From Oscillospiraceae bacterium (GTDB lineage Bacteria > Bacillota > Clostridia > UBA1212 > UBA1255), in the NCBI GenBank assembly GCA_015069185.1, contig SVJB01000003.1:101402-165401 (forward strand): DNA of 64,000 nt. Reading direction: 5' to 3'. Made by a program: the position numbers and the translations under genes. Shown here piece by piece: positions 21,976 through 43,851 of this stretch; position 1 is the stretch's first letter; every line of letters begins with the position of its first letter. Under the pieces are notes generated by a model. The model searched no databases, was not told the DNA's origin, and worked only from the letters and a program-made list of their open reading frames with translations.

Positions 21976-22278
21976 ATGACCAAACCCAAAAAACGAATTT
22001 TTTCATTAGATGGAGATACCGTAGAAGTAATATACTACTACGATGAGTCTTGTGGGAAACATTTAGGAGATTATCCAGATTTTGAATCTCACCCCAGATA
22101 TACTCCTACAGGCAGACCTTGGGTAGATGTAACCATGACAGGGTGTGAGTTCTCTGAAACAGAAGAGCAAGATTGCGGATCTTGCAGATATTTACAAAAG
22201 GAAAAGACTAACGATATTATCGGAGTTTGTGTTCATGAAAAAAGACGACTTGCAGTGTCGGGAAAGGACGAACAATGA
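21976..22278 (+). CDS. Small Cys-containing hypothetical protein, translationally coupled to giant adhesin
   Basis: 100 aa, upstream aaggagag, CGSCRYLQ...GVCVHEKRR; ATGA overlap with next gene. Confidence 0.65.
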   Translation: MTKPKKRIFSLDGDTVEVIYYYDESCGKHLGDYPDFESHPRYTPTGRPWVDVTMTGCEFSETEEQDCGSCRYLQKEKTNDIIGVCVHEKRRLAVSGKDEQ

Positions 22279-25200: not shown

Positions 25201-28200
25201 ATGAACTTGGTTCTGAATATGTAATTCCGGCAAACAAAATATTCCAAATTAAGGTTACCCTCAGTGATGTGAATGTGGCAAACAAGACATTTGAGGCTAT
25301 TCACTCTGGTAATGCAAGTATTACATCTGTAACAACTGATGCAAACGGAAGCTTCGTAGTTACTCTTAGCCATGATCAGCAGATTGAGATTAAAGGACTT
25401 TATGAAAATACGGTTGTAACTGCTGAGGAAATTAATACACCTTCAGGTTTTACTCCTGCATATTACGAAGGAAGCAACCTGGGAGATGGCGTTATATATG
25501 TTGTTGCAAACACTGTTTCAGACATTGTAGTAGTAAATAGCTACGAAGCAAAGGAAGTATATCCTGTTAATATCACTGTTGGCGGCGACAAGATTTTCAC
25601 AGGTAGACCTGATAACGCATGGGAAGATACAGATACATTTACATTTGAACTTCAGAAATACGTGTCAGGTACATGGCAGACAGTTAACACACAGACGGTA
25701 AACAAAGATAATAAAGCATTTGACTTTACAGCGTTTATGCAGAAGGAGCCTTTTGCAGCACCGGGTACATATTCATACCAGATTATTGAGACTACAGGCT
25801 CTATAAGTGGTGTTACATATGACAGAAGCATCTATACATTTACTATACATGTAAGCGATAGTGATATGGATGGTCAGCTTGAGATAGTTAATGTTACAGA
25901 TGACGGAGATGGCGCAGTAACTTTTGATTCTGCAACAAACACCTGGAAAGTATCTGAGAGTTTTGTTAATACATATTCAACAACAGGTAGCGCGACGGTT
26001 ACGCTTGATGTAAACAAAACTTTGGTTAATCCTTCTCAAAGCACTTTAGTATCTGTAGCAGGCTTCAGATTCGGTTTGTATGATACAGCCGGCAATCTTG
26101 TATATACAACACCTATGACAGATGCTCTGGGTAAGGCTCGTCTTGTTATTAATTACACACCAGGTGATATCGGCACATATTCATATGTACTTAAGGAAAT
26201 CGTGCCGGACAACAAAGTGACAGGTATGACATACTCACAGCAGGAATATGATGTTACAATCGTAGTTGGTGATGATACTCAAGGTGGTATTACTGCTACA
26301 ATTCAGGTTGGCAGCGGTAGCGTAGGGGAAGGTGCTCAGGCGGCTTTTGAGAATACTTATACAGTAGGTTCTGCAACATTAGAACTTAATGTTACTAAGA
26401 ACATTACAGGTATAGATCTTGTTGCAAATGCATATGCATTTAAGATTGTTGATTTGCTAAGCGGTAATACTGTAGCCACAGGCACTAACGATGCATCAGG
26501 CAAAGTCACTTTTGATAAAGCTATTACATTTGACAAAGTTGGTCAATATGGTTTTGCTATAACAGAAGAAGCAGGTACAGCAGGTGGCGTTACATACGAT
26601 AGTACAGAGTACAGGATAATGGTCACTGTTACAGATGATGGCAGTGGCGTACTTAAGGCATCATATGTTATTACATCTCACTCAGGCCAGAATATAGTAT
26701 TCAATAATACATATAAGGCTGATGAAACATCATTGATGATCTCAGGCACTAAGACATTAAATGGCAAACAGCTGCTTAATGATATGTTCAGCTTCAGTCT
26801 TGTTGAAACAGATGCGGCTCACAACGTTATAGCGGGCGGCACAGAACGTAGTGCTATTAACAGAGCAAACGGTACAATTTACTTTGATGGTATTACATAT
26901 ACAAAAGCAGGACTTTATTACTATACAATTACAGAAAATGCTGGAAATATTCCAGGTGTTGTATATGATAAGACTGTATATTATGTAACAGTTGAAGTTA
27001 CAGATAACAAAGAAGGAAAACTTATTGCTCAAATCAGCTCTATTGAAGATGCAAATGGCAACGCTAAGACAGCAATCAGCTTTATTAATAATTATGTACC
27101 TGCACCTACAGACGTAATTGTATCTGGCGATAAAGTATTAACAGGCAAAGTACTTACAGATGGTATTTACACATTTGAGATTTATGAAGCTACAAGCGAC
27201 TGGACAATATCCAATACAGCTCTTGATACAGCGATTAATGTAAACGGTGAATTCATTTTCAGCGAGATTGAGTATACAAAAGCCGGTACATACAGATACA
27301 TTGTTAAGGAAGTAAATGGCGGTAAAACAATTGATGGTGTTACATATGACGCGACAGTATTTGCTGTAACAGTTATTATTACAGATAATGGAAACGGACA
27401 ATTTGATACACAGATTCTCTATGCAGAATACTACGGAGATTACACAATCCCTGTTAACTCAATGGTATTTGAAAATACATACCAGATCAGAGATGAGATT
27501 ACAGTTGATATAAGCGGAACAAAAGTATTGACAGGCGCTACACTTAATGCAGGCGACTATGTATTTGAGCTCTTTGAAACAGATGCACAGCGGATTATTG
27601 CAGCCGGTGAAAATTACATGTCGTCAGTATCCAACGCCGCAAACGGAAGCTTTTCGTTTAGCCTTAAATATACAGCAGTTGGTACATATTACTATGTAGT
27701 TCGCGAAGCTAACAGTGGTAAAGTAATTAATGGCATCACTTATGATGACACAGTATACTTTGTTACAGTTAATGTTACAGATAACGGCAAAGGCGGCTTG
27801 GCACACACAGTATCTATCGTAGATAACAATCAGGCAGTTGTTGACACTATGGTGTTTACTAACAAATATGAAGTTGTAGATCAGGTTCAGGTTGACATCG
27901 GAGGTACTAAAGTACTTACAGGTAAGACTTTACAAGACAGCATGTTTACATTTAATCTGTACACAGCAGATGAGTCATGGACAGTTGGTTCATTAGTAGA
28001 TTCGGCTACAAATATCAGCGGCAGATTTGACTTCTCTACACTTTTGTTCGACAACGCCGGTACATATTACTACGTGGTACGCGAAGCAAATGGCGGCCTT
28101 ACTGTTGACGGTATTAAATACGACAGCGGTGAGTATAGAATCAAAGTAATAGTAACAGATAATGGCGCAGGCAAATTTGATGTAGTAACTACAATGACTG

Positions 28201-31200
28201 ATGAGACAGGTGCAAATGTAACTGACATAGTATTCGAGAATGCATATAGCGTAAGCGGTAATGTTACAGTATCTCTTAGCGGTAATAAAGATCTTGTAGG
28301 TAAGGAGCTTACTGCTGGTATGTTCAGCTTTGAACTTGTACAGAATGCTTCTGCGATACAGACTGTAAACAATAATGAGGATGGTACATTCAACTTTGCC
28401 ACACTTACTTTCACACAGATTGGCACATATGTATATCTCATCAGAGAAGTAAATGGTGGATCTACAATTGATGGTGTTACATATGATAATACAGTATACA
28501 CTGTAACAATTAATGTGACAGATAATGGCAAGGGTAGCCTGGCAAGTGAGATAGTGATCACAAAAGACGGCCAGAAAGTTGACTTTGTAATATTTGAAAA
28601 CGTGTATGTAGTAACAGGCGAAGTTGAAGTTAACGTTGGCGGTACTAAAGAATTTACAGGCGCAACTCTGGAAGCTGACAAATTCCTGTTTGGCTTGTTT
28701 GAATCCAACAGTAGCTTCGCAGTTGCAAATGAGCAGCTTCCTATCATTACTGCCCGTAACTCTGCAAACGGAAGTTTTGCCTTTGACGCACTTAAATTCA
28801 ATAAAGCAGGTGCATACTACTACGTTGTAGAGGAAGCTTATAGAGGTCAGGTAATTGATGGTATTACATACGACTCTAACAGATATCTGATTACGGTTAT
28901 TGTAACAGATAACGGCAAGGGTAGCTGGGATGCAGATGTTACAATTACAGATTCAAATAAGAATGTTGTAAATGATATAGTGTTCAGAAATGAATACAAC
29001 GTAACAGGGGATGCTGCTGTTACAATTGATGGTAGCAAGACTCTTACAGGTAGAGATTTACCGGATGGTGCTTTCTTCTTCGAACTCTATGCATCAGACG
29101 CAAATAAAACAACAGGTGCTCTTATTGAGTCTACAAGAAACTTCTCAGGTAAGTTTACATTCAGTACAATTACTTACACACAAGAAGGCACATACTACTA
29201 TCTGGTTAAAGAAGCTTACAGTGGTCAGGTAATCAGCGGCGTTACATTTGATGACAGTGTATTCCACGTAACAGTTACAGTTGAAGATAACGGTGTTGGC
29301 GGCCTTGCTGTTACTAAAGTAATCAAAGACAAGAACGATCAAGTGGTTGACGCTATTGGCTTTACAAACAGCTATGCAGTAACTGGTTCCGTATCAGTGA
29401 TATTAAATGGCCTCAAGCAGATTACAGGAAAAACCCTCAAAGCAGGCGAGTTTACATTTGAACTAGTTGAAGAGGGCAAGATAGATGCTATAGAGACAGT
29501 ATCTAACAACGCAAACGGCGAATTTAGCTTTACATCACTCTCCTTCACACAGATCGGTGAATACAAGTACGTTGTATACGAAGTAAATGGCGGTAAAGTG
29601 ATAGATGGTGTTACATACGATGCAATTAAATATTACATCACAGTTAAAGTAACAGATAATGGCAAGGGTGGCTTAGCCGCTGAAACTGTAATTGTTAGCA
29701 GCAACAATGTTACAGTTGAGACAATGCGATTTAACAACTCATATAAAGTAAGCGGCGCTGCAACTGAGACCTTATCAGGTACTAAAGTTCTTGAAGGAAA
29801 AACTCTTAAAGCAAATGATTTCTCCTTTGAACTGTACAAGGTTGGACGCACATATGAAATCACACCAGGTAGCTTACCAATTGAAGTCGTGAAAAATATT
29901 GCGAACGGCAACTTCACATTTGCTACATTAGAGTTTGTTGAAGTTGGTACACACTTCTATATCATAAAAGAAGTAGATGGCGGTAAAACAATCGATGGTA
30001 TTACTTATGATTCAGCTGAATATCGTGTAATGATCGATATATCAGATGATGGTAAGGGCAATCTTATTAAAAAAACAACTATTACTGATGCAAATGGAAC
30101 AGCGGCTGATGTTATTTTCACAAATAAATACACTGTAACAGGCAGTGTGACAGTTGAACTTGGCGGCAAGAAACAGCTTACAGGTGCAGAGCTTAAAGAA
30201 AATATGTTTACATTTGAACTCTTTGAGACTGACGCAAGCTTTGCTATCGCAGATGGCCAGGTAGCAATTCAGACTGTGGCAAACAGTGCAAACGGAACAA
30301 TCAGCTTTGATGGACTTACTTTCACAAAGATAGGCACTTACTACTATGCGATACGCGAGGCAAACGGTGGCAAACAGATTGCCGGTATTACATACGATGA
30401 TGGTATGTTCTATGTGACAGTCAGCGTAACTGATAATGGCGTAGGTGGTATGAATGTTCAGTACTCAATTACTGATGAAAATAAGCAAGCTGTAAGTGAA
30501 ATGTTATTTACTAACACATATAGCGTAAGTGGCGAAGCTCAGGCTGATATCGGCGGTACAAAAGAGCTGACAGGAAGAGAGCTTAAAGACGGCGTGTTTA
30601 CATTTGAACTGTATGAATCAGATGAAAACATGACTCTCATCTCGAAACTTGACGAGGCACAGAACTATGCAGGTAGATTTGACTTCAGGACAATTACATA
30701 TACAGAGCTTGGCACATACTACTATGTTGTTGTTGAGGTAAACGGCGGTGAGAAGATTGACGGTATCACATATGACAGTGCGAAATATCTGGTTGTAGTT
30801 ACTGTAAGCGACAACAAGGTTGGCGGCATGAATGTTGATATTGCGATCACAAAGGATGCCGCGCAAGTAAGCGAGATAGCATTTGTGAATGTATATGAAG
30901 TTACAGGCAGTGTTCAGGCCGAGATTACAGGTAACAAGCAGCTGAACGGTAACTTAACACTCAAGGGAGATGATTTCGTATTCGAACTCTTTGAACAAGG
31001 CAGCACAACAAGCATTGCTACAGCTAAGAATGACATAAATGGATTATTCAAGTTTGATACTCTTAACTTTACAGCAGTAGGTGAGTACGTTTATGAAGTG
31101 CGCGAAGCAAATGGTGGTCAGATTGTTAATGGTATCAAGTACGATGGAACTGTTTATACAGTTAAGATTACTGTTGCAGATAACGGTGTAGGTGGTCTTA

Positions 31201-31778
31201 ATATCACAGTTCTGTACATGAACAACGCAGGTGAGAACGTCACTGATATTACTTTCGTAAACGAGTACAGTGCGCAGGGAACAAGTATAGAGATTGGCGG
31301 TACTAAGAAATCTGACGGATTTGAGCTTATAGATGAACAGTTTGAGTTTGTACTCTACGCAGCAGATTCTACATGGGCTTCCGGCGGCGCTATTGAAGCA
31401 GTAAAGAACTATGCAGGCAAGTTTGTTTTCACGAAGCTTGAATATACGCAGGCAGGTAATTACTACTATGTTGTCAGTGAGCTTGGCGGCGGACAAAAGG
31501 TTGATAAGATCAAATATGACGCTACGGTATATTATATTACGGTAACTGTTACAGATAACGGCTTGGGTCAGCTTGAAGCTAATATGACAATTGCTGCTGC
31601 AATAGACGGCTCCGTACAGGTTGAGAACATTGAATTTGTGAATGTTTATGAAGCGCCACCGATCAATCCTGAGACGGGCGACGGTAATGAGCTGCTAATG
31701 TGGCTGGCGATTGTGGTAGTGACAGGTAGTATGTTTACACGAATCGTAGTTTCTAAGAAGAAGGAACAGGAAGTGTAA
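22275..31778 (+). CDS. Giant (3167 aa) cell-wall-anchored surface protein: signal peptide, VWA domain, about 16 tandem Spy0128/FctA-like isopeptide domains, NPETG sorting signal
   Basis: Signal peptide MKRTNLFNKAISMLLAIVIFIMTLPMLALP; VWA MIDAS FVLDVSGSIS; repeated GTKxLTG...YYYVVxExxGG..IDGITYD..Y.VTVxVTDNGKGG...FxNxY; C-terminus NPETGD-TM-KKKEQEV. Confidence 0.9.
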   Translation: MKRTNLFNKAISMLLAIVIFIMTLPMLALPTVIAEGSDRVADTSTMDGWKKFFGPDVLSTEYAGGVWTDKSVFTSSDAFQGTGITLTDDGRSFLVALSAIASNTSISGYSNKPTDTMFVLDVSGSISSAVATQMVNATNKAIKDLMDTNINNRVGVILYSGSSSSYTNSTAAVTVLPLGRYNTTSMSGNYLQYSNDTISLLRNVTDASTGRRPSSTSKQVTGATYIQKGVIAAMDALTSSSTTVNDGAATLKRSPVVVLMSDGAPTLGASDFTAPGQYNLGSGSSTTDALGFVTQLSCAYAKASIEEHYDNDCIFYTLGCGINDISDGDDKAIALSVLDPKTSTSAINQFWTSYNSASTGGSVALSTRVGVTKIATALSQNYSDAYFEASGSNDTSLSQSLADAFDQIVYNIKLQSRYYPTLVENYEDFEGNISFIDKIGEYMTVSDIKGILLNNTLFSGEMLSKNFVDDSDAFGIEGNPTELGMEFVSAVRTRLGLSSDDEAIKLIKDAYTHGQIYYDPVTKEFSNYIGWYANKNGEFLGFWYDGITTMPDPSDSSLTDATRPAYIIKSYGLLGEVDASHGVAETDMMYATIQVRKDISTGEEMVIFAVPAALIPIVSYDISLTGTNNEILSDLTVSGATSPIRLVYEVTLRDDIDETNVTELVDDGYAYINSDGTYSFYTNKWSNSVNDTKVNTYSYFEPSTQNERYYYTADSTVYADTNGTVFRGTIDSNGTYYRQFNVYKKVGNAFAIVPTYEPISAQSLAKALVQNDGSYVIPAGTIHRYLDNISVPKDSDGTTTNNKTLTNAYVDYPIIEVDDNTGRFYVAAVQGNNGKLTLVPETGIKITKKVTNAVPGASEDFIFNIVSNNQSENKQYDAILVDANGNKQDTSVTFASGRALVTLKDGESIYITGLDAGNVYLVSEVASEHYKVSAVNGDATKVNAQITVAERQIIEATFENSPREKGSVIISKEVIHELGSEYVIPANKIFQIKVTLSDVNVANKTFEAIHSGNASITSVTTDANGSFVVTLSHDQQIEIKGLYENTVVTAEEINTPSGFTPAYYEGSNLGDGVIYVVANTVSDIVVVNSYEAKEVYPVNITVGGDKIFTGRPDNAWEDTDTFTFELQKYVSGTWQTVNTQTVNKDNKAFDFTAFMQKEPFAAPGTYSYQIIETTGSISGVTYDRSIYTFTIHVSDSDMDGQLEIVNVTDDGDGAVTFDSATNTWKVSESFVNTYSTTGSATVTLDVNKTLVNPSQSTLVSVAGFRFGLYDTAGNLVYTTPMTDALGKARLVINYTPGDIGTYSYVLKEIVPDNKVTGMTYSQQEYDVTIVVGDDTQGGITATIQVGSGSVGEGAQAAFENTYTVGSATLELNVTKNITGIDLVANAYAFKIVDLLSGNTVATGTNDASGKVTFDKAITFDKVGQYGFAITEEAGTAGGVTYDSTEYRIMVTVTDDGSGVLKASYVITSHSGQNIVFNNTYKADETSLMISGTKTLNGKQLLNDMFSFSLVETDAAHNVIAGGTERSAINRANGTIYFDGITYTKAGLYYYTITENAGNIPGVVYDKTVYYVTVEVTDNKEGKLIAQISSIEDANGNAKTAISFINNYVPAPTDVIVSGDKVLTGKVLTDGIYTFEIYEATSDWTISNTALDTAINVNGEFIFSEIEYTKAGTYRYIVKEVNGGKTIDGVTYDATVFAVTVIITDNGNGQFDTQILYAEYYGDYTIPVNSMVFENTYQIRDEITVDISGTKVLTGATLNAGDYVFELFETDAQRIIAAGENYMSSVSNAANGSFSFSLKYTAVGTYYYVVREANSGKVINGITYDDTVYFVTVNVTDNGKGGLAHTVSIVDNNQAVVDTMVFTNKYEVVDQVQVDIGGTKVLTGKTLQDSMFTFNLYTADESWTVGSLVDSATNISGRFDFSTLLFDNAGTYYYVVREANGGLTVDGIKYDSGEYRIKVIVTDNGAGKFDVVTTMTDETGANVTDIVFENAYSVSGNVTVSLSGNKDLVGKELTAGMFSFELVQNASAIQTVNNNEDGTFNFATLTFTQIGTYVYLIREVNGGSTIDGVTYDNTVYTVTINVTDNGKGSLASEIVITKDGQKVDFVIFENVYVVTGEVEVNVGGTKEFTGATLEADKFLFGLFESNSSFAVANEQLPIITARNSANGSFAFDALKFNKAGAYYYVVEEAYRGQVIDGITYDSNRYLITVIVTDNGKGSWDADVTITDSNKNVVNDIVFRNEYNVTGDAAVTIDGSKTLTGRDLPDGAFFFELYASDANKTTGALIESTRNFSGKFTFSTITYTQEGTYYYLVKEAYSGQVISGVTFDDSVFHVTVTVEDNGVGGLAVTKVIKDKNDQVVDAIGFTNSYAVTGSVSVILNGLKQITGKTLKAGEFTFELVEEGKIDAIETVSNNANGEFSFTSLSFTQIGEYKYVVYEVNGGKVIDGVTYDAIKYYITVKVTDNGKGGLAAETVIVSSNNVTVETMRFNNSYKVSGAATETLSGTKVLEGKTLKANDFSFELYKVGRTYEITPGSLPIEVVKNIANGNFTFATLEFVEVGTHFYIIKEVDGGKTIDGITYDSAEYRVMIDISDDGKGNLIKKTTITDANGTAADVIFTNKYTVTGSVTVELGGKKQLTGAELKENMFTFELFETDASFAIADGQVAIQTVANSANGTISFDGLTFTKIGTYYYAIREANGGKQIAGITYDDGMFYVTVSVTDNGVGGMNVQYSITDENKQAVSEMLFTNTYSVSGEAQADIGGTKELTGRELKDGVFTFELYESDENMTLISKLDEAQNYAGRFDFRTITYTELGTYYYVVVEVNGGEKIDGITYDSAKYLVVVTVSDNKVGGMNVDIAITKDAAQVSEIAFVNVYEVTGSVQAEITGNKQLNGNLTLKGDDFVFELFEQGSTTSIATAKNDINGLFKFDTLNFTAVGEYVYEVREANGGQIVNGIKYDGTVYTVKITVADNGVGGLNITVLYMNNAGENVTDITFVNEYSAQGTSIEIGGTKKSDGFELIDEQFEFVLYAADSTWASGGAIEAVKNYAGKFVFTKLEYTQAGNYYYVVSELGGGQKVDKIKYDATVYYITVTVTDNGLGQLEANMTIAAAIDGSVQVENIEFVNVYEAPPINPETGDGNELLMWLAIVVVTGSMFTRIVVSKKKEQEV

Positions 31779-31800: not shown

Positions 31801-31833
31801 CAGAGCTCCTTGTATATTTTGCAGGGAGCTCTG
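31801..31833 (+). terminator. Terminator after giant adhesin gene
   Basis: CAGAGCTCC...GGAGCTCTG perfect 9-bp stem followed by attttat. Confidence 0.65.
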
Positions 31834-31933
31834 ATTTTATATTAATATCTTAAAAAAGTGATAGTTTGTTAATATTATGTTGTGTTATTATACAAATAAT
31901 AAAAGCAAATGACTTGCAGAAAGAGATATTGAT

Positions 31934-34576
31934 ATGTATCATGTACTCCAATTCTTAAATGAAAATTTGGAAAGTAAGATTACCCAAAGAGAGGTTGCTT
32001 CTATGTTTGGGTATTCGATTGCGTACTTTTCTGAAAAATTTAAGTTATATACAGGATGTACTTTCCACGAGTATATGAACAGACGAAGGATGCAGTATGC
32101 GGCAAAATGTCTGATCGAGGGTAAGAAAATAACGGATATTGCTTTTGATCTTGGATACAACAGCATTAATGGCTTTAAGAAGGCATTTAAGAATGAATTT
32201 GGTATTTTTCCTACACAATATAAGAAGCAAGAAAAGGCTGACAGAAAATGTAAGATAAATCGTTTGCCGCAAAGATGTACTAAGCTTATAGAAAATGTTA
32301 CAAGTCGCAATGTCCTGCGTAAATACCGAGGCCAGTATTTATATAATTTTATGAAAGGCTATTATTCCGTTCCGATTAAGGAACGCAATCAGCGTAGGCT
32401 GCTTACAGCATCAATATGTTCCGTTATTGATAACTTCACCCCATATATTGAAGAGGAAGAATTGATTGTAGGGTACAACTATGACAACGAGGAGCAGGAA
32501 ATAAATGGTTATGCTCACAAAACAGTATCCGAATATAATTCTTTGAAAATGTACTTACAGGACAGTTTGCTGCCGAGTGGCCAGGTGGATGAAATCCTTA
32601 CCCGCATTACAGACGAGACGGATGGTTATGCACCGAATTATATGTTGTATGATGTAAATCCCGAGTATCGTTTGAGAGACGATGGTTCGGGAAAATTTAA
32701 TGATATGTACCATGATATGGCACTGAATGGAATGTGTAAGATTAATAATCATTGTATCCCAGATTATAAAATCATATTGGAAAAGGGTTTCCAAGGTTTG
32801 CGTGATGAGCTTGTAGTAAAGTTCAATGATACAAATGATGATTTTTATGGCGATTTAATAAAATTATGTCAGTCGTGTATGCGTATCGGTGAGAAATATG
32901 CGGCTTGTGCCGAGCAAATGGCGCAAGAGACTAAGAATACAACGGAGAAGGAACGGTTGCTGAAGATTGCGCAGGTGTGCAGTCGGGTACCGCGATATCC
33001 GGCAACAAATTTGTACGAGGCAATACAAAGTATATATTTCACACATATCATAAATACATGGGAAGACGGTGTAAACGCAAATTCGTTGGGCAGACTGGAT
33101 CAGATACTGTACCCGTATTATTGTAACGATATAGAAAAAGGTGTTATTAATAACGAGGAGGCATATGAGCTACTTTGCTGCCTTTGGATAAAATTGTATA
33201 AAACATATGATGTGCAGAACATTACAATAGGCGGTTGTGACAGCAAGGGTCATGATGCGGTAAATGAGCTGTCATATATGATTTTAGATTGTCTGGAGAA
33301 TATTAATTTGGTACGTAGCTTGTCTGTGCGATATTCACGTGTTACAGACAGAGCATTTATGCACAGATGTTTCTCTGTCTTGAAAAATATAAGAAACGGG
33401 CAGCCTTCATTCTGTAATGATGATGTAATGATTCCTGCTTTGGTAAGCAAAGGAATTCAATGGGAAGATGCAACTGATTATGCGCTGCTGGGATGCGTAG
33501 AGCCTACAATTCCGGGACGGGCAAATTCCCACTCATCTACCGCTAATATGAATGTAGTAAAGGCAATTGAATACACACTGGGACAGGGAAGGAGTCTGTG
33601 CCAACCGAACCTGTCTGATGGTGTTATCACTAAAGATCCGTGCTTATTCAGGAGCTTTAATGAGTTCCTGCAAGCGGTATATATCCATCTGGAACAAATT
33701 GTAAATGCTACTTGCGAATTTGTTGATTCATTAGCACAATATGTGGTTGAGCATGCCTCGCTACCGTATAAGACATTACTTACGGAAGGATGTATTGCAT
33801 CAGGGGTTGATTATGCCCAAGGAGGCACTAAATATAATTACTATCAGATAATGATTTCCGGCTTTGCTAATCTTGTTGATTCGTTAGAGGCTGTACGTAC
33901 GGTTGTTTATAAAAATAAGACTCTCGATATGAAGAAAATGATCGAACATATAAAAATGAATTATAGAGATGAGAATGTTAGAAATATATTTACAACACAA
34001 GCAGCAAAGTATGGAAACGGAATAAGCAAAACAGATGAACTGGCTTGTGAAATATATGAAAAAATATGTGTATGTCTTAATAATTATCAATCTGCAATAG
34101 ACGGTAACAAGAGTTTTCATCCACAATTCTTTTCTTTCTCTGATAACCAATTATTTGGTGAATATACATCTGCGACTCCTGACGGCAGATACAAAGGTGA
34201 TTTTTTATCGTATGGTGTGGCGCCTATGAACGGATGTGATATAAATGGATATAAGGCAGTGCTGAATTCGGCATCGGCTCTTCCTACCGTTATGGCAGCC
34301 GGTAATACATCGTTGATAGTGGATATGGCGCAATATGTTTTTTCAGAGACAAACCTTGACAGAATTATTGATCTGTATATGGACGCGTCGCAAAGAGGCC
34401 TTTGCAGCACAATATTCAATCTTATCAATCCCCAGGAATTAAAACAAGCTATGTGTTTTCCTGAAAAATATCCTGATGTTTATGTAAATGTTTCCGGCTT
34501 CAGCAGACGCTTTTGTTCTTTTTCGGAAAATGTCAGACGATCAATTGTACAACGAACAAATCATATTTCAGTGTAA
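31934..34576 (+). CDS. AraC-type HTH domain fused to pyruvate formate-lyase-like glycyl radical enzyme
   Basis: aa 1-105 AraC HTH (ITQREVASMFGYSIAYFSEKFKLYTGCTFHEYMNRRRMQYA...ITDIAFDLGYNSINGFKKAFKNEFGIFPTQYKK); then PFL-like domain with LLGCVEPTIPGR (33491-33505) and C-terminal VNVSGFSRRFCSFSENVRRSIVQRTNH with Gly codon at 34496-34498. Confidence 0.88.
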   Translation: MYHVLQFLNENLESKITQREVASMFGYSIAYFSEKFKLYTGCTFHEYMNRRRMQYAAKCLIEGKKITDIAFDLGYNSINGFKKAFKNEFGIFPTQYKKQEKADRKCKINRLPQRCTKLIENVTSRNVLRKYRGQYLYNFMKGYYSVPIKERNQRRLLTASICSVIDNFTPYIEEEELIVGYNYDNEEQEINGYAHKTVSEYNSLKMYLQDSLLPSGQVDEILTRITDETDGYAPNYMLYDVNPEYRLRDDGSGKFNDMYHDMALNGMCKINNHCIPDYKIILEKGFQGLRDELVVKFNDTNDDFYGDLIKLCQSCMRIGEKYAACAEQMAQETKNTTEKERLLKIAQVCSRVPRYPATNLYEAIQSIYFTHIINTWEDGVNANSLGRLDQILYPYYCNDIEKGVINNEEAYELLCCLWIKLYKTYDVQNITIGGCDSKGHDAVNELSYMILDCLENINLVRSLSVRYSRVTDRAFMHRCFSVLKNIRNGQPSFCNDDVMIPALVSKGIQWEDATDYALLGCVEPTIPGRANSHSSTANMNVVKAIEYTLGQGRSLCQPNLSDGVITKDPCLFRSFNEFLQAVYIHLEQIVNATCEFVDSLAQYVVEHASLPYKTLLTEGCIASGVDYAQGGTKYNYYQIMISGFANLVDSLEAVRTVVYKNKTLDMKKMIEHIKMNYRDENVRNIFTTQAAKYGNGISKTDELACEIYEKICVCLNNYQSAIDGNKSFHPQFFSFSDNQLFGEYTSATPDGRYKGDFLSYGVAPMNGCDINGYKAVLNSASALPTVMAAGNTSLIVDMAQYVFSETNLDRIIDLYMDASQRGLCSTIFNLINPQELKQAMCFPEKYPDVYVNVSGFSRRFCSFSENVRRSIVQRTNHISV

Positions 34577-34647
34577 ACAGAAAAAAAGTGACAGAAAAGA
34601 TGTTGCAAATCATATACGATAGTCTCAAGAAAGGCAAGGTATGATTT

Positions 34648-36369
34648 ATGAGAAAAATTATGCTACTTATTTTGTCCGGTCTGATTATAGTATTAACAGG
34701 ATTGTTACTATTAGTTTATTTCACCCCGGAAAGAGAGAAAGATAACACTACGACATATTTAATGAATGATATTCCGGAGGTGTCTCTTCCGGGAATTACT
34801 CAAGAGAGTTTTGCAGATAGTTTTAAGGTTCTTGAAGAAGCGGTAGTAGAGGCGAGTAAATCTGACCCGGTGTATGGTTTTGAATATCCGTTCTGCGGTC
34901 CGGGAGGAGCATACGGTCCTTGTTGGTGGCAATTAGATACGTCTCTGGCAACTGCAGGTGCTAAGTGGACTAATCAGGAGTTTGCTGAAAATGTGCTGCG
35001 TAACTTTATGTTAGTACAAAGAGAAGATGGACGTATACCGCTTCACGGTCCTGATAATTTATTAAATGAAGAACTGAAATGTTCTTCGCTTCCTAAACTG
35101 TTTAGAACAGCATATGAGATATTACAAAGAACAGAGGACAAGGAATTAATTGAAGATACATACGAAATGCTCAAGAAGTATCTTGATTGGTGGCTTACTG
35201 TACGTAGAGATGGAAATACAGGCTTGATACTAGGTATTGTTGAGGAATTCTTACCGGGTGCTAATGAGTTTGTGATACCTGTGGAGACAAATGTAGAGGT
35301 GATAGAAGGATGCATTGTTGTATCTAAACTTGCGGCATATTTGAATAAAAATGAAGATGCAAATTACTATAAGCAGGAAGAAGAGAGACTTAAGACTGCT
35401 ATCAATACATTTATGTGGGATGAAGCACTGGGCAGATACGAGTCTCTTAAAGGAGAAGGGAAACTGTCTATATGGTCAATTGCAAATTTTGATGTATTGC
35501 GCAATGGTATTGCAAGACAAGATAGAATAGAGTTACTGCTTAGAGATTTGACTGATGATTCATTATTCCAATGGGATACATATCCGCTTACTACAGCTGC
35601 AAAAACTGATCCACAATATAATGAGACTCCGGGCTCATACGCGGCAATCCAATGGTATGGCAGTATATGGTCACTACGTAATTATTCTATTATTGAGGGC
35701 TTAGAAGATATAGGGCGCTATGATCTTGCTGCTTATTTGGCTCTAAGAACAGTAGAGATGTTTGATAACAATTATGCCGAATTCCTGAATCCGCCGGACG
35801 GCAGCGGACACGGTGTTTTGAGATATTCATGGACAGCATCTGACTATATACAAATTATAATAGAACATATTTTCGGTATAAATTATGATGAGTTCACAGA
35901 TACACTGACAATTAGACCTATGTTAGATTCGTCGCTTAAGGGCAGAACAATATCTATCAAGAATTTACTTTTGCCTGATGGCGGTAAATTAAGTGTGATC
36001 ATCAAATATGAAGAAAACGCAGTTCGTATTAAATATGAAACAACAGGTGCGATGAATTTTAAAAAGATAATCGTATTGCCTGATAATAGTGAGGAATACA
36101 AATATGTGGTAGGAGAGGAAACCTTTGAAGCGGTAAGTAGTGATGACAATGTGGTAGTAATAGATAACGGAACATGTTGTAGCGATGAAATAATTTTCAC
36201 AGATTTTGCAGGCCTTATGGACACATACGAACCGCTTTATAATGATTTGGGATTGGATACTTCTAATGTGAACAGAGCAAAAAATATCGTGTCTATGGTA
36301 ATCTCTGTTACGAACATAGTCTGTGCACTTGCTGTTTGCTTTATTGTTTTGAAGGTGAAGGAAATGTAA
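34648..36369 (+). CDS. Membrane-anchored six-hairpin (MGH1/GH63-like) glycosidase, paralog A
   Basis: YPFCGPGGAYGPCWWQLDTSLATAGAKWTN...REDGRIPLHGPD...PGSYAAIQWYGSIWSLRNYSIIEGLEDIGRYDLA; N-terminal and C-terminal TM segments. Confidence 0.75.
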   Translation: MRKIMLLILSGLIIVLTGLLLLVYFTPEREKDNTTTYLMNDIPEVSLPGITQESFADSFKVLEEAVVEASKSDPVYGFEYPFCGPGGAYGPCWWQLDTSLATAGAKWTNQEFAENVLRNFMLVQREDGRIPLHGPDNLLNEELKCSSLPKLFRTAYEILQRTEDKELIEDTYEMLKKYLDWWLTVRRDGNTGLILGIVEEFLPGANEFVIPVETNVEVIEGCIVVSKLAAYLNKNEDANYYKQEEERLKTAINTFMWDEALGRYESLKGEGKLSIWSIANFDVLRNGIARQDRIELLLRDLTDDSLFQWDTYPLTTAAKTDPQYNETPGSYAAIQWYGSIWSLRNYSIIEGLEDIGRYDLAAYLALRTVEMFDNNYAEFLNPPDGSGHGVLRYSWTASDYIQIIIEHIFGINYDEFTDTLTIRPMLDSSLKGRTISIKNLLLPDGGKLSVIIKYEENAVRIKYETTGAMNFKKIIVLPDNSEEYKYVVGEETFEAVSSDDNVVVIDNGTCCSDEIIFTDFAGLMDTYEPLYNDLGLDTSNVNRAKNIVSMVISVTNIVCALAVCFIVLKVKEM

Positions 36370-36779: not shown

Positions 36780-37895
36780 TTGATGATTAAAGTTACTTTG
36801 ACCAACGAAATTCTAAAAAGAATATCTATAATTGATGAGAATCGGTTTTCGCTTAGGACGATTGCACTTCCACAGCCAACACAAAATCGTTTGCGTAAGA
36901 ATTCAAAGAAGAAGAGTTCCTACGCCTCTAATAAAATTGAGGGTAACCCGCTTACCGAAGCACAAGCAAACGCAGCAATGGAGGCAGATCCCCACAAGCA
37001 CTTTCTGAAACCGGAGCAAGAGATTCGGAACTACTTCTTGGCGCTCAATCTATTGGAAGAGAGACGGAAGAAGAATCTTCCGTTTTCAAAGGAACTTTTG
37101 CTGGCAGTTCAGGCAATGGTTGAAAAAGGCGCATCTAAAGAGAAAATTGGATTGCGAGGATCGACACCTCCCGGTGTCCTGTTTGCTGTGTATGATACCG
37201 AAAGTGGAGCGCCGGAGTACATTCCTCCGGAATACTCCGACATCCCGGCTCTTTTGGATGAACTGGTAGAATATGTGAACACCACCGATGATCATCCACT
37301 GATTGTTGCTGCGGTAGTCCATTATCAATTGGTAACGATCCATCCGTTTGAGGACGGAAATGGGAGAACAGCTCGGCTAATGTCCGGATACATTTTGGAT
37401 CTGAATGGCTATGGCTTTAATGGCATTGGCTCCTTGGAGGAGTATTTTGCCTATGATCCGGAAGAATACTATGCCTCTTTGCAAATGGGACTGCCGGCAT
37501 TGTATTACTCCGGGCGGGAGAATCCGCCCCATCCAGAAATATGGGTCAATTATTTCTTGCGAATGATGGAACTGTATTCTAAAAAAGTATGTGAGTTATC
37601 GCTGTCTTCAACCGAAGATGATTTGGCCGGTAGTTTATCCCATCTAAATCTTAAAGAAAAAGAATTGCTTGCATTTCTTCTGAAAAAACAACTGGCGGAG
37701 TTTACCCCTATAGAGGTCAGTAAACAGCTTGGCGTTACCAATAAAACCATTATCAATCGTTGTGCCAAGCTAACGGCAAATGGCTTTTTGATTCCCAATA
37801 TTGTCAAAGAGAGAATTCGATCCTACTCTTTGACCGAATTTGCCCAAAAAGAAGCCAAACAGATTTTGAAGAGAATTGCAATGTACCGTGATTAA
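36780..37895 (+). CDS. Fic family protein with C-terminal winged helix
   Basis: HPFEDGNGRTAR Fic motif; upstream inhibitory-type motif SNKIEGN; C-terminal HTH (TPIEVSKQLGVTNKTIINRCAKLTANGFL). Confidence 0.92.
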   Translation: MMIKVTLTNEILKRISIIDENRFSLRTIALPQPTQNRLRKNSKKKSSYASNKIEGNPLTEAQANAAMEADPHKHFLKPEQEIRNYFLALNLLEERRKKNLPFSKELLLAVQAMVEKGASKEKIGLRGSTPPGVLFAVYDTESGAPEYIPPEYSDIPALLDELVEYVNTTDDHPLIVAAVVHYQLVTIHPFEDGNGRTARLMSGYILDLNGYGFNGIGSLEEYFAYDPEEYYASLQMGLPALYYSGRENPPHPEIWVNYFLRMMELYSKKVCELSLSSTEDDLAGSLSHLNLKEKELLAFLLKKQLAEFTPIEVSKQLGVTNKTIINRCAKLTANGFLIPNIVKERIRSYSLTEFAQKEAKQILKRIAMYRD

Positions 37896-38032: not shown

Positions 38033-38144
38033 ATGAAGAAAACTGTTTGATGAAATATCTGTAAATAATATAAAAAACATCTAAAAAAAGTGACAGTTCG
38101 TTTATGAACAATTTGTTACTATATGCTACGAGGAGGAAGGGTTT

Positions 38145-39869
38145 ATGAAAAGAAGTATATTACTTATTTTGTTAGCTGTAATGATGTTGTTGCCAATAAC
38201 AAGTCAGGTTCAGGCTACAGAGGATTCATCTTATTTGATTAATAACATCCCGGAAATAGTATTGCCGGTTGTTACTCAAGAGACTTTTAATGACAGCTTC
38301 AAAGTTTTAGAAGAAGCTGTTACCGAAGCAAGTAGTTCTAATCCGGTGTTTGGGTTTGAATATCCATTCTGTGGTCCCGGAGGAGCATACGGCGCTTGTT
38401 GGTGGCAATTAGATACATCTCTGGCAACCGCCGGTGCTAAATGGACTAATCAAGAGTTTGCTGAAAATGTTCTAAGAAACTTTATGTTAGTTCAACGTGA
38501 GGACGGACGCATACCACTTCATGGTCCTGATAGCTTATTAAATGAAGATTTGAAGTGCTCTTCTTTGCCAAAATTATTTAGAACGGCATATGAAATTTTA
38601 CAGAGAACAGAGGATAAGGAATTAATCGAAGATACGTATGAAATGCTCAAAAAGTATCTTGATTGGTGGCTTACCGTACGTAGACATGAAGAAACAGGAT
38701 TAGTCCTTGGCATAGTAGAGGAATTCTTGCCCGGCTCAAGCGAATTCACCATTCCGGTAGAGACTAATGTAGAAGTATATGAAGGTTGTATTGTTGTATC
38801 AAAGCTTGCCGAATACTTAAAGAAAACAGAAGATTACCAGCATTATAAACAAGAGGCTGATACTATTAAGGATGCAATCAATACGTATATTTGGAATGAT
38901 GCAAAGTCAAAATATTTATCGCTAAAGGCAAATGGTAAACATGGCCTTTCTGTCGGTGTGTGGTCGGTTGCTTGCTTTGATGTACTTAGACATTGTATCG
39001 CGACCGAAGAGAGAGTAGATATTTTATTAAGAGATCTAACAGACGATTCTTTATTCCAATGGGATACATATCCGCTTACATCTGCTGCTAAAACTGATAC
39101 TAAATATAATGAGACACCTGGGGCTTATGCCGCATGTCAATGGTATGGCAGTATATGGTCTCTTCGTAATTATTCTGTAGTAGAAGGTCTTGAAGATATA
39201 GGCCGCTATGATTTGGCAGGATATTTAGCTCTTAAGACTGTTGAAATATTTGATGGTAATTACGCTGAGTTCTTGAATCCTCCGGATGGAAGCGGTCACG
39301 GTGTTTTGAGATATTCATGGACAGCAGCTGATTATATACAGCTTATTGTAGAGCATATTTTTGGCGTTAACTATGATTCATTAACCGACACATTAACCAT
39401 CGCACCTATATTAGATTCATCACTGAAGGGACAGACAATTTCATTAAAGAATTTGTTACTCCCGGACGGAGGCACTTTAAGTGTAACTATAACTTATGAA
39501 GAAGAGTGCATAAGGATTTCTTATGAAGCAACAGGAGCAAAGGAATTTAAGAAGATTATTGCTATGCCTTCTGTTGATAAGGAATATGCTGCAGTAGGTA
39601 AGACCGTAACAAAGACTACTGTTGGTTATTCTGGCAGTCAGTATGTTGTGGATAATGGCAAGTTTTCAAAAGACGAAATTATTTTTACAGCTCCCGATAA
39701 AGTAGGCAATTATGAATATGTTGCGCCTACTGATGAGCCTGTTCTTTCAGAGAATCAAAAGACAGAATTTCCGCCTGTTTATGTGGCTGTGTTGATTATA
39801 TCCGGTGCTGTAATATTTGGTGCAGTAGCAATTATGTTTTCATATATAAAAAAAGGAAAGGAAGAGTGA
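38145..39869 (+). CDS. Membrane-anchored six-hairpin (MGH1/GH63-like) glycosidase, paralog B
   Basis: Closely similar to 34648-36369 over full length (PFCGPGGAYGACWWQLDTSLATAGAKWTNQEFAENVLRNFMLVQREDGRIPLHGPD); signal peptide and C-terminal TM. Confidence 0.75.
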   Translation: MKRSILLILLAVMMLLPITSQVQATEDSSYLINNIPEIVLPVVTQETFNDSFKVLEEAVTEASSSNPVFGFEYPFCGPGGAYGACWWQLDTSLATAGAKWTNQEFAENVLRNFMLVQREDGRIPLHGPDSLLNEDLKCSSLPKLFRTAYEILQRTEDKELIEDTYEMLKKYLDWWLTVRRHEETGLVLGIVEEFLPGSSEFTIPVETNVEVYEGCIVVSKLAEYLKKTEDYQHYKQEADTIKDAINTYIWNDAKSKYLSLKANGKHGLSVGVWSVACFDVLRHCIATEERVDILLRDLTDDSLFQWDTYPLTSAAKTDTKYNETPGAYAACQWYGSIWSLRNYSVVEGLEDIGRYDLAGYLALKTVEIFDGNYAEFLNPPDGSGHGVLRYSWTAADYIQLIVEHIFGVNYDSLTDTLTIAPILDSSLKGQTISLKNLLLPDGGTLSVTITYEEECIRISYEATGAKEFKKIIAMPSVDKEYAAVGKTVTKTTVGYSGSQYVVDNGKFSKDEIIFTAPDKVGNYEYVAPTDEPVLSENQKTEFPPVYVAVLIISGAVIFGAVAIMFSYIKKGKEE

Positions 39870-40771
39870 TTATGAAAAAAATTATTGTATGGATTGTTTT
39901 GAGTGTTGTACTTGTTATGAGTATGGGTATTAATATTCAAGCAGAGGAAACAGAGGAAACAGAGAAACTCGAATGGGTTAATATTCTGGATCGAGAATTC
40001 CCAGAGGTAGAGGATACTAGTTGGGGACATGCACGATTTGAAGATGAAGTTATTTATATGTATATGTGGCAAGACCAACCATATCAATTTAGAGTGCTAT
40101 TAGATGGGTTGGAACCAAAATTTCGTATGACAGGTAAAATTGTGCTTGAAGAAGTTACATATACTGGTGAAGACGATATTTCAGGTTGGAATGGTCTCAG
40201 AATCATATGCGGTAGCCAAGATTTCTTGAATTATAATACCGTCTCTTTATATGCGCGACATGGTGCGCATATTGTTAACCATTCAAGTGTAGGTGTAGGG
40301 CCTCTCGTGCCATATCCAGAAGGATTTGCTTTTGCAGCTGGAACGGAGTTTACATTTGAACTTTATAGAGACGGCAGATATATTATGTTTAAAATAAATG
40401 ATACGGTAATGATTGATTATACTATTTCTGAGTCTGAAGATTTTTATAATCAGGATGTATATAATAACATTGGTTTTATTGCTATTAATACAGCTTATCA
40501 AGTAGAGGATCTTAAGATTGAAGTAGAGCAGGTAGTTCCTGATGAGACTCCTATTCCTACAGAGGCTCCTGCTACACCTACAGTTGCACCTACAATTGCT
40601 CCTACAGAGGCTCCTGCAACAGAGGCTCCTGTAACAGAGGCTCCGGGGAATACCCAAAATAACAACGAGACAGATAATTACACATGGGTATGGATCGTTG
40701 CCGGAGTAGCTGCTGTTGCAGTTATTGCTTGTGTTGTAGTTGTTTTAAATAAAAATAAGAAAGGAAAATGA
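39866..40771 (+). CDS. Secreted single-domain jelly-roll-like (concanavalin-like/LamG-type) protein with Pro/Thr stalk and C-terminal TM
   Basis: Signal peptide; domain shared with next ORF (YMYMWQDQPYQFRVLL...YTGEDDISGWNGLRIICG...VSLYARHGAHIV...FELYRDGRYIMFKINDTVMIDYTISESEDF); TEAPATEAPVTEAP linker; VWIVAGVAAVAVIACVVVVLNKNKKGK. Confidence 0.65.
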   Translation: MIMKKIIVWIVLSVVLVMSMGINIQAEETEETEKLEWVNILDREFPEVEDTSWGHARFEDEVIYMYMWQDQPYQFRVLLDGLEPKFRMTGKIVLEEVTYTGEDDISGWNGLRIICGSQDFLNYNTVSLYARHGAHIVNHSSVGVGPLVPYPEGFAFAAGTEFTFELYRDGRYIMFKINDTVMIDYTISESEDFYNQDVYNNIGFIAINTAYQVEDLKIEVEQVVPDETPIPTEAPATPTVAPTIAPTEAPATEAPVTEAPGNTQNNNETDNYTWVWIVAGVAAVAVIACVVVVLNKNKKGK

Positions 40772-40774
40772 TTT

Positions 40775-42229
40775 ATGAAAATATCGACTAAAAAAATAAT
40801 TGCATTACTTATAGCTTGCATGATGACAGTTATTATGTTTTCTGCTTTGACAACATCAGCTTCTGAGGGAAATACAAACTATGAGGATATATATAATAAA
40901 AATCCTCAGCTTATGTATAATTTTGACCATGCTACAGTTGACAATGGTGATATTAATCTGCAAATGTGGAGAGATGTACCTTATCAGGTTGGAGTTCAAT
41001 TAGATAAGGCGTTAAATGAAAACTATAAGATGTCAGGTAAGATAAAGGTAAACGATGTTATAGCAACAGGAGATAATGACATATCAATTTGGAATTGTAT
41101 TAGAATTGTTGTAGGTCGCAAATCAGATAATGAATATGTTACAGTATCCATATATCGTAAGGTTGGTGTACAGATTGTAACATTTAATAATGGTGCTCTT
41201 GCCGGAGTAGGACCGATTATTCCACTCCCGGAGGGTACAGAGTTTGTAAATGGAGCAGAGATGTCTTTTGAAGTAGAGAAACAGGGCACAAAGTTATCAT
41301 TTACATTAAATGGTACAAAGGTTATTGATTATACTTTATCAGAAAGTGATAATTTATCTGACGCATCAAATAATATAATTGCATTCCAGTCAACTAACGT
41401 AGATTATACTGTGTCAAATATTAAAGTTTTAGTGGAGAAAGAAGTTGAGTCAGAAGATAAGCATACTGAATTTGTAGATATTTACGACAAGACAAATCCT
41501 CAACTCATGTATAATTTTGACCATGCTACAGTTGACAATGGTGATATTAATCTGCAAATGTGGAGAGATGTTCCTTACCAGGTTGGAGTTCAGTTGAGTG
41601 AGACACTAACTGAAAATTATAAATTATCAGGAAATATACATGTAAATGATGTTATAGCAACTGCAGATGATGATATATCAATTTGGAACTGTATTAGAAT
41701 TCTTGCAGGACGTAAATCGGATAGTCAGTATGTTACAGTATCAATATACCGTAAAGTTGGTGTGCAGATAGTAACTTTTAATAATGGTGCACTTGCCGGT
41801 GTAGGTCCGATTATCCCACTTCCGGAGGGAACAGAATTTGTTAATGGCGCAGACATGTCTTTTGAAATAGAGAGACAGGGAAGCAAACTGATTTTTACAT
41901 TAAATGGCACAAAACTTATTGACTATGTATTGTCAGAAAGTGAAGATTTTAATGATGCGTCAAATAACAATATAATTGCATTCCAGTCAACCAACGCAGA
42001 CTATACAGTATCAGATATTAAAGTTTTAGTGGAGAAGGAAGTTGTTGCTCCGCCGACACAAGAACCTACACAGGAGCCCACACAGGAGCCTACACAAGAA
42101 CCTACACAGAAGCCGGATAATCCGAATACAGGAGACAGTATGATGGATTTATTTATATACATATCTATGGCAGCTTGTGTATTAACAGGAATAATGTATT
42201 TTGCAAGAAAGGAAAAGACTAATGGCTGA
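40775..42229 (+). CDS. Cell-wall-anchored protein with two tandem jelly-roll-like domains, TQEP repeats and NPNTG sorting signal
   Basis: Signal peptide, two 198-aa repeats (NPQLMYNFDHATVDNGDINLQMWRDVPYQVGVQL), TQEPTQEPTQEPTQEPTQKPDNPNTGD-TM-RKEKTNG. Confidence 0.7.
   Translation: MKISTKKIIALLIACMMTVIMFSALTTSASEGNTNYEDIYNKNPQLMYNFDHATVDNGDINLQMWRDVPYQVGVQLDKALNENYKMSGKIKVNDVIATGDNDISIWNCIRIVVGRKSDNEYVTVSIYRKVGVQIVTFNNGALAGVGPIIPLPEGTEFVNGAEMSFEVEKQGTKLSFTLNGTKVIDYTLSESDNLSDASNNIIAFQSTNVDYTVSNIKVLVEKEVESEDKHTEFVDIYDKTNPQLMYNFDHATVDNGDINLQMWRDVPYQVGVQLSETLTENYKLSGNIHVNDVIATADDDISIWNCIRILAGRKSDSQYVTVSIYRKVGVQIVTFNNGALAGVGPIIPLPEGTEFVNGADMSFEIERQGSKLIFTLNGTKLIDYVLSESEDFNDASNNNIIAFQSTNADYTVSDIKVLVEKEVVAPPTQEPTQEPTQEPTQEPTQKPDNPNTGDSMMDLFIYISMAACVLTGIMYFARKEKTNG
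40913..40977 (+). repeat. Copy 1 of exact 65-bp intragenic repeat
   Basis: atgtataattttgaccatgctacagttgacaatggtgatattaatctgcaaatgtggagagatgt. Confidence 0.9.
41507..41571 (+). repeat. Copy 2 of exact 65-bp intragenic repeat (594-bp offset = 198 codons)
   Basis: Identical to 40913-40977. Confidence 0.9.
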
Positions 42230-43724
42230 GATTTATAATCTGTCGATGATACCCAAGGTTCAGTTCCCCGATATCAAGCAAGAAGATTTTGAAGATGCTT
42301 TTCAGGTTATGCAAGAAGCCTATGTGGTTGCATCTGAGGATGCTCCGGTATATAGCTTTACGCATCCGTTCTGCGGCCCGGGTGGAGAATACGGAGCATG
42401 TTGGTGGCAGCTTGACACATCGCTTGCTTTATGCGGCGCTAAATGGGTAAATCATAAGTTTGCAGAGAATGTGCTTCGTGGATTTACTACTGTACAGAGA
42501 GAAAAGGGGCGTATACCCCTTCATGGACCGGACGTACTTCTTGATCCGGAGCATAAGTGCAGCTCAGTGCCTAAATTGTTCCAAGCAGCTTACGAGGTGT
42601 TAGAGAGAACGCATGATAACGCTTTGCTTGATGAAATATATCCTTTACTTAAAGGCTATATTGATTGGTGGCTATCAGACAGAATAGAAGAAAAGACAGG
42701 CTTAATCTATGCGATAGTGGAGGAATATCTCCCCGGACGCAATGTACCCTTGTGCTCGCTCGAGACTAATATTGAGGTTGTTGTCGGATGCAAGGTTGTA
42801 TCTAAATTGGCTCGCCGCCTTGGTAAGATCGAAGAGGCAGAGTATTATAAGGCAAAGATGCTTCATCATTCAAACCTTATCAGAACACTTCTGTGGGATG
42901 ATGAAAAGAAGATATTTATGTCTTATGACCCTCTTACTGGTGCTTTTGAAGGAAAGATTTATTCTACTATATTTGATGTAATGAAAAACGGTGTAGCGTC
43001 AGATGAACAAATTGATTATTTACTTTCATATTTGACTGATGATAGTCTATTCCAGTGGAATACAGTTTGCTTGACTACGGCTGCGAAGACAGACAAATGC
43101 TATAACGAGACTCCCGGCCGTTATGCTGCATGTCAGTGGGAAGGTAGTATCTGGTCAATGCGTAACTATACTGTTATTGAAGGTCTGGACGATATAGGAA
43201 GATTTGATTTATCTGCTTACTTGTCATGGAAGACTGTTACGTTATTTAGCGGTAACTTTGCAGAGTTCTTAAATCCTCCTGATGGTAGCGGACATGGAGT
43301 AAAGCGCTATGTATGGACTGCTTCACAATATGTTCAGATTTTAATTGAACGTATTTTCGGTATAAGATACAGCAATTATTTAGGTTCTGTAAGTATTATG
43401 CCGAATATCCCGCCTATATGTTATGGCAAGAAACTTTCTTTGTGCGATTTGTTGCTCCCGGGTGGAGCGCGTATGGATGTAGATATTACCTCTACGATAG
43501 ATGGCTCGGAAATTACAATTAAATATAATATTACTCCTGGTGATATTAAGGATAATAAGAAACTGGTTGTTGCACTGCCATCATATGGAAACAGTTACAA
43601 GGCAGTTAGCTGTGATTATGAGGTGTGCAAACATAATCGTGGTAATATCTGTCAAACAGAATCCTTGATTACTTTGATCCCCGGTGAGAAAACAATAAGT
43701 GGAGAGGTCAAGTTTGTGAAATAA
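42222..43724 (+). CDS. Cytoplasmic six-hairpin (MGH1/GH63-like) glycosidase, paralog C (no signal peptide)
   Basis: HPFCGPGGEYGACWWQLDTSLALCGAKWVNHKFAENVLRGF...PGRYAACQWEGSIWSMRNYTVIEGLDDIGRFDL; starts MAEIYNLSMIPKV; overlaps upstream gene by 8 nt. Confidence 0.75.
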   Translation: MAEIYNLSMIPKVQFPDIKQEDFEDAFQVMQEAYVVASEDAPVYSFTHPFCGPGGEYGACWWQLDTSLALCGAKWVNHKFAENVLRGFTTVQREKGRIPLHGPDVLLDPEHKCSSVPKLFQAAYEVLERTHDNALLDEIYPLLKGYIDWWLSDRIEEKTGLIYAIVEEYLPGRNVPLCSLETNIEVVVGCKVVSKLARRLGKIEEAEYYKAKMLHHSNLIRTLLWDDEKKIFMSYDPLTGAFEGKIYSTIFDVMKNGVASDEQIDYLLSYLTDDSLFQWNTVCLTTAAKTDKCYNETPGRYAACQWEGSIWSMRNYTVIEGLDDIGRFDLSAYLSWKTVTLFSGNFAEFLNPPDGSGHGVKRYVWTASQYVQILIERIFGIRYSNYLGSVSIMPNIPPICYGKKLSLCDLLLPGGARMDVDITSTIDGSEITIKYNITPGDIKDNKKLVVALPSYGNSYKAVSCDYEVCKHNRGNICQTESLITLIPGEKTISGEVKFVK

Positions 43725-43851
43725 AACAAATAGCATGAAAAAACTTCGGATATTCTTAAATTCTGAAGTAATATAGTGATGGTAAACAAAAAAAAGTGTC
43801 TACCATCACTTTTTTTAGTATAATCAATAGAAGATATATACTACGAAAGTG

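Follow-up and report, generated by a model that had tools for sequence, protein, structure and literature searches.

Within a stretch of 64,000 nucleotides from the genome of an Oscillospiraceae bacterium (hereafter, the window), a single gene joins an AraC-type DNA-binding domain to a glycyl radical enzyme (GRE). Its sequence and surroundings suggest that the encoded protein is probably a one-component transcription factor, where the GRE fold would act as a ligand sensor. We would give about an even chance to a fuller evolutionary account, in which a self-regulated radical enzyme became a dedicated transcription factor: the activase and the radical chemistry were lost, the pocket was kept as a sensor, and promoters of a neighbouring glycosidase cluster acquired the DNA site.

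A DNA-binding domain and a radical enzyme in one chain

The fusion gene (31934..34576, forward strand, as for all features below unless stated) is one unbroken frame of 880 amino acids. The protein starts with an AraC-type double helix-turn-helix (HTH) domain (aa 1-103, positions 31934..32242), where Pfam finds HTH_18 (PF12833; aa 22-99, 72 bits) and HTH_AraC (PF00165; 57 bits), and which matches the structures of MarA, SoxS and Rob. It is followed by a PFL-like barrel (aa 160-742, positions 32411..34159; PF02901, 411 bits), identified by Pfam and Foldseek as the ten-stranded barrel of GREs, and by a partly decayed glycyl radical domain (aa 760-861, positions 34211..34516; Gly_radical, PF01228, 50 bits), with all three domain types exceeding their cut-offs. 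The AlphaFold model, built on a 35-sequence alignment, has a mean pLDDT of 88 and a pTM of 0.83; it forms helices in the HTH part and shows the whole of a GRE fold. The PDB structures that match it best are dehydratases and lyases of the GRE class (TM about 0.75, over the query), including glycerol/diol dehydratase, HypD and CutC. This architecture, which is directly legible in the sequence, had been proposed in an earlier note on this DNA, and the reading frame, Pfam and the AlphaFold model confirm it; the three domain profiles suggested there for a search (PF12833, PF02901 and PF01228) are all found in the protein.

The earlier note had also described a retained GCVEP loop and a C-terminal glycyl loop, and both are indeed present. 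The first occupies aa 520-524, with the putative thiyl-radical Cys521 (codon 33494..33496, placed by alignment with glycerol dehydratase) and Glu523 two residues on, as in GREs of the dehydratase/lyase type; this Cys occurs in every member of our alignment A2. The glycyl loop, NVSGFSRRF (aa 852-860), keeps the final Phe and the would-be radical Gly855 (codon 34496..34498), a Gly present throughout the same alignment. It nevertheless departs from the pattern RVxG(Y/F)xxxF, since Asn852 (34487..34489) replaces the family Arg of RVSGF, though the Pfam Gly_radical model still exceeds its cut-off. Of the two changes claimed for this loop, Arg to Asn is real, whereas Tyr to Phe is no mark of decay, given that a Phe normally follows the glycine in this subfamily (RVSGFSQKF); only the first is a true departure. 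The window protein falls under the cut-off of every NCBIfam GRE model, as do its typical relatives (see below); TIGR01774 gives 383 bits against a cut-off of 678, and the equivalog models score far lower. The subfamily to which the fusions belong thus has no assigned reaction.

A family of fusions in uncultured Clostridia

While a scan of genome contigs with a single protein as query gave no match, an alignment-based scan did detect fusion loci. Across relatives and a species-level genome collection, the alignment search found 31 further loci that match the fusion from its first residue, and the genome of the window itself has a second AraC-GRE copy, on contig C13 and with 37% identity. Of the 31, twenty-eight are unbroken full-length frames; two are broken (L051 and L068) and one is shortened (L107). 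The hosts are nearly all uncultured Clostridia, many of them from ruminant rumen or hindgut samples. The earlier note had made its reading depend on the existence of AraC-PFL homologs elsewhere, and these 31 loci supply them. They also bear on the trivial explanation that assembly or gene calling merged two genes, an error conceivable in a draft genome assembled from a community: the identical junction, with neither stop nor frameshift, recurs in 28 full-length copies from separate assemblies, and we regard such an artefact as already refuted, with practically no probability left to it.

Close relatives lacking the HTH exist as well (L071-L075, L078, L113 and others). In a tree of the GRE part they are partly nested inside the fused group, which requires at least five changes and implies repeated gain or loss of the HTH. 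We found no description of an AraC-GRE fusion in the literature within reach of our search, which lay outside most subscription journals. Two further observations concern the edges of this family. Locus L107 (8001-9530) encodes a fusion shortened to 509 aa, where the Cys-loop region is absent and the HTH, the end carrying the glycyl loop and a downstream activase are present. Unfused members of the GRE subfamily occur in Sigynarchaeota and Chloroflexota (L077, L080 and L081); their loops are intact, and none was found to have an activase in the vicinity.

Typical fusions look like self-regulated enzymes

The typical members of the family carry the loops GCVET and RVSGFSQKF, and no full typical member lacks the Arg. 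A radical-SAM GRE activase is encoded directly downstream of 26 of the 29 typical fusions, often with an overlap of about 10 bp, and the three typical fusions without an adjacent activase (L053, L062 and L067) have full-length activases of the ferredoxin type elsewhere in their genomes. An unsupervised search of the 140 bp upstream recovered one motif, with a consensus of about CGCAATTTTGGAGTAGAWTT, in 25 of 25 typical regions; its information amounts to 19.4 bits versus 8.1-8.7 in shuffled sets, in upstream sequences that are related and whose flanks around the motif have diverged. In most typical members the motif lies about 16-18 nt ahead of a TATAAT-like -10 box, and its score ranges from 12.0 to 29.0 for the fused genes versus at most 6.4 for ten unfused relatives. 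At L069, where the operon opens with a lipoprotein gene and the fusion comes later, the motif stands before that lipoprotein gene. Canonical loops, an adjacent activase and a motif before their own gene that is absent from unfused relatives make the typical fusions look like apparently working, self-regulated radical enzymes.

The search for further targets of this motif, over 16-30 genomes, gave mostly matches inside genes or at background level. A stricter pattern matches 24 times in 30 genomes, mostly at the same fusion promoters, and its other matches are roughly at chance level, given a background of about 0.3 per genome. One single case could be a second target: at around 597-640 of L151, in the genome of L066, the motif stands before a sugar ABC permease gene, at an appropriate distance from a -10 box.

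Decay of the glycyl domain in the window clade

In the GRE tree the window protein belongs to a clade of four, with support of 97/96, together with L044, the C13 copy and L063, the last two on long branches. L044, which comes from water-buffalo rumen, is 59-60% identical to the window protein. None of the four has an activase beside the fusion, with a flank of less than 1 kb in the case of L063. The earlier statement that the window encodes no GRE-activating radical SAM enzyme holds, as no GRE activase was found in it. An activase of this clade might be missed, given that the pieces carrying L063 and L044 are short or end with the contig, and that the window genome has a completeness of 85%. 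That genome encodes three activases, on contigs C14, C21 and C31, every one of them immediately next to a different GRE, and the activase model fits them except for its ferredoxin part; in the genome of L063 there are likewise only shorter activases that lack this part.

The pattern of loss within the clade is plain from the alignment. The Arg of RVSGF is replaced in all four members (by Asn, Asn, Ala and Gln), and among the 46 positions of the glycyl domain that are invariant in 30 typical members, the window protein keeps 24 (52%), made up of 13/25 in one part of the domain and 11/21 in the other. For the barrel, the figure is 58 of 66 (88%), and around the Cys loop 11 of 14. Three proteins outside the clade that are equally or more distant (L045, L077 and L081) keep 88-100% of the glycyl-domain invariants. 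The Gly_radical scores follow the same trend, with 50 bits for the window protein and 37 for L044 versus 76-85 in six typical members, and the Pfam model no longer scores in L063 and C13. Between the window protein and L044, identity is 72% in the HTH, 88% in the Cys loop and 26% in the glycyl loop, so that only the short Cys loop is better conserved than the HTH; when typical members are compared pairwise, the glycyl loop is instead the more conserved of it and the HTH. As the four members share ancestry, the loss of the activase and the decay of the loop have to be counted as one evolutionary event and not as four.

Not everything has been lost in this branch. The Cys and the Gly persist in all four members and the Glu in three, and the window gene retains Cys521, Glu523 and Gly855, the pocket residues around them and the HTH. 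With these three residues intact, turnover after activation in trans is possible, and the window protein could still be an active, self-regulating trigger enzyme that makes a product and also controls transcription. The preserved pocket speaks for such an enzyme, as do typical relatives that appear fully competent, three of which manage without an adjacent activase, and the three activases available elsewhere in the window genome. Nevertheless, each of those activases stands beside a GRE of its own and lacks the part typical of this family's partners, the window protein has lost Arg852 along with roughly half of the invariant positions in its glycyl domain, and the second copy in the same genome has lost the Glu too (GCSGI). 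We therefore consider an active trigger enzyme rather unlikely.

The decaying glycyl domain could also be taken to indicate an ordinary GRE whose HTH has no regulatory role, or simply a gene in decay, the more so because some close relatives do without the HTH, which must then be dispensable. This is hard to reconcile with an HTH that is the best conserved large part of the protein (72% between the window and L044), with an 880-aa frame that has stayed unbroken even as identity between the proteins fell to about 60%, and with a motif confined to fused members; we deem it very improbable.

Other GRE loci of the window genome deserve mention. At the C13 copy (L021, 4671-7310), GCSGI stands in place of GCVEP, the glycyl loop is shortened and the neighbouring genes belong to no Pfam family. 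Contigs C21 and C14 carry near-duplicate loci (L026, 4749-8755, and L027, 3151-7166) that comprise a GRE, an activase and a zinc-type dehydrogenase of 364 aa; in the vicinity of each there are a separate AraC-type regulator gene and genes for surface proteins.

A shared motif in the glycosidase cluster

Downstream of the fusion lies a cluster of glycosidases of PF22422 and surface proteins. Glycosidase gene 1 (34648..36369), of the MGH1-like (alpha/alpha)6 type and with hydrophobic stretches at both ends, is 63% identical to the gene that adjoins the fusion at locus L022, and glycosidase gene 2 (38145..39869), of the same family, is 65% identical to its L022 counterpart. Then come two related genes, one for a secreted or surface protein without a Pfam family (39866..40771) and one for a surface protein weakly resembling sortase-anchored ends (40775..42229; NF053819 under its cut-off, 46% to L022), and glycosidase gene 3 (42201..43724; 72% to L022). 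The order fusion, glycosidase, surface protein, glycosidase is common to the window and L022, at 46-72% identity. Genes located close to relatives include GH28, GH92, GH78-type, heparinase-like and sugar transport genes, which loosely point to glycan breakdown.

Directly upstream of the fusion, 22275-31778 encodes a surface protein of 3167 aa with a vWA-like start, 16 FctA (Spy0128-like isopeptide) repeats and a C-terminal anchor. Between glycosidase genes 1 and 2 there is a Fic-domain gene (36780-37895; 66.7 bits), absent from the L022 cluster, and the 410 bp ahead of it resemble the remnant of another reading frame.

A terminator-like hairpin (31801..31833) marks the end of the surface-protein gene upstream, which makes it likely that a separate transcript begins with the fusion gene. 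The earlier note had proposed the regions upstream of 31934, 34648 and 38145 as targets of the protein, and it is exactly there that a genome-unique motif is located. The putative operators are AAAAAAGTGATAGTT (31852..31866), 82 bp before the fusion gene and ahead of a -10-like TATACA (31889-31894); AAAAAAGTGACAGAA (34582..34596), 66 bp before glycosidase gene 1; and AAAAAAGTGACAGTT (38084..38098), 61 bp before glycosidase gene 2. A fourth copy, AAAAAAGTGATGGTA (43801..43815, reverse strand), lies in a terminator-like hairpin (43775-43810) after glycosidase gene 3 and may be a coincidence. In the whole 2.1-Mb genome, the pattern AAAAAAGTGAYRG has exactly four matches, all inside a span of 12 kb in this cluster, and its reversed form occurs once; with up to two mismatches the window has 6 matches versus 0.99 expected, a result reached in 0 of 100 shuffles. 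The motif was found in and partly tested on the same sequences, and the sites at L022 are the best independent check: at L022/L044 the motif stands at two equivalent places, 82-83 bp before the fusion as in the window, and at position 2994 of L022 as AAAAAAGTGACAG, the counterpart of the putative operator before glycosidase gene 1. A near-copy of the L022/L044 fusion promoter occurs at the end of another contig of the same genome. As for the motif of the typical members, L063 retains it (13.4 bits), and the window and L044 are without it. An exact match to AAAAAGTGAYRGTT in genome G010 was set aside, as it apparently lies within a coding frame.

The elements AAAAAAGTGAYRGTT and CGCAATTTTGGAGTAG might instead be general promoter elements, read by a sigma factor or another regulator. 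They overlap the -35 region, each has a -10-like box nearby, and an element read by another factor would look identical. Yet AAAAAAGTGAYRG is confined to this cluster genome-wide, the typical motif is missing upstream of unfused relatives, and most other matches of the latter stay close to the background given above, all of which makes general elements improbable.

A proposed path from enzyme to sensor

The ancestor was probably a working, self-regulating enzyme, whose HTH would bind a motif at its own promoter, overlapping the -35 region, and so turn on both enzyme and activase. In the window branch, the activase partner would have been lost and the radical loop would be decaying, while the substrate pocket and the HTH were kept. 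The barrel would now most likely bind a small ligand, at a guess a sugar or sugar-derived compound freed by the neighbouring glycosidases, and this binding would alter the action of the HTH at AAAAAAGTGAYRGTT before its own gene and two glycosidase genes. The motifs and the conserved gene order are features of the DNA itself; from them we infer that the HTH binds these sites, and that it does so as an activator. Class II activators have sites that overlap the -35 region, and the putative sites of the fusion, similarly placed, would resemble this type of activation. Ligand sensing and the absence of turnover are in turn deduced from a decaying glycyl domain, the lack of an adjacent activase and a motif that also precedes glycosidase genes, which together favour the sensor reading for the window gene. 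The earlier note had offered two readings, an enzyme acting as its own transcription factor and a GRE fold that senses a ligand, and the comparison of sequences suggests both, in different branches of the family.

If so, intermediates of the process apparently coexist: an unfused enzyme with its activase, a fused and self-regulated enzyme with its activase, and a fused protein with a decaying loop and new targets. Their survival makes the step from enzyme to sensor a testable one. The typical members, on their side, would represent a novel GRE group from the ruminant gut in which every enzyme is tied to its own gene.

Comparison with known systems

The fusions share with the glycyl radical dehydratases and lyases of the PFL2-3 group (glycerol/propanediol dehydratase, HypD and CutC) the fold, the GCxE Cys loop and the glycyl domain, as well as, in the typical members, an activase next door. 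They differ in having an N-terminal AraC HTH in the same chain and a shorter active-site insert, and the window clade differs also in that its glycyl loop is decaying. With the AraC/XylS regulators (AraC, RhaS, MarA, SoxS and Rob) they have in common the same type of double HTH. In the fusions, however, the HTH is N-terminal and the sensor would be a radical-enzyme fold of 770 aa instead of one of the cupin type, with no accessory cupin.

Trigger enzymes combine a metabolic enzyme and a DNA-binding regulator in one protein, as PutA and NadR do. In the literature searched, with most subscription journals beyond its reach, we found no example based on a GRE. Like PutA and NadR, the fusions unite both functions in one chain, with likely autoregulation; judging from their sequences, the typical members are likely trigger enzymes, and for the window gene this status is doubtful.
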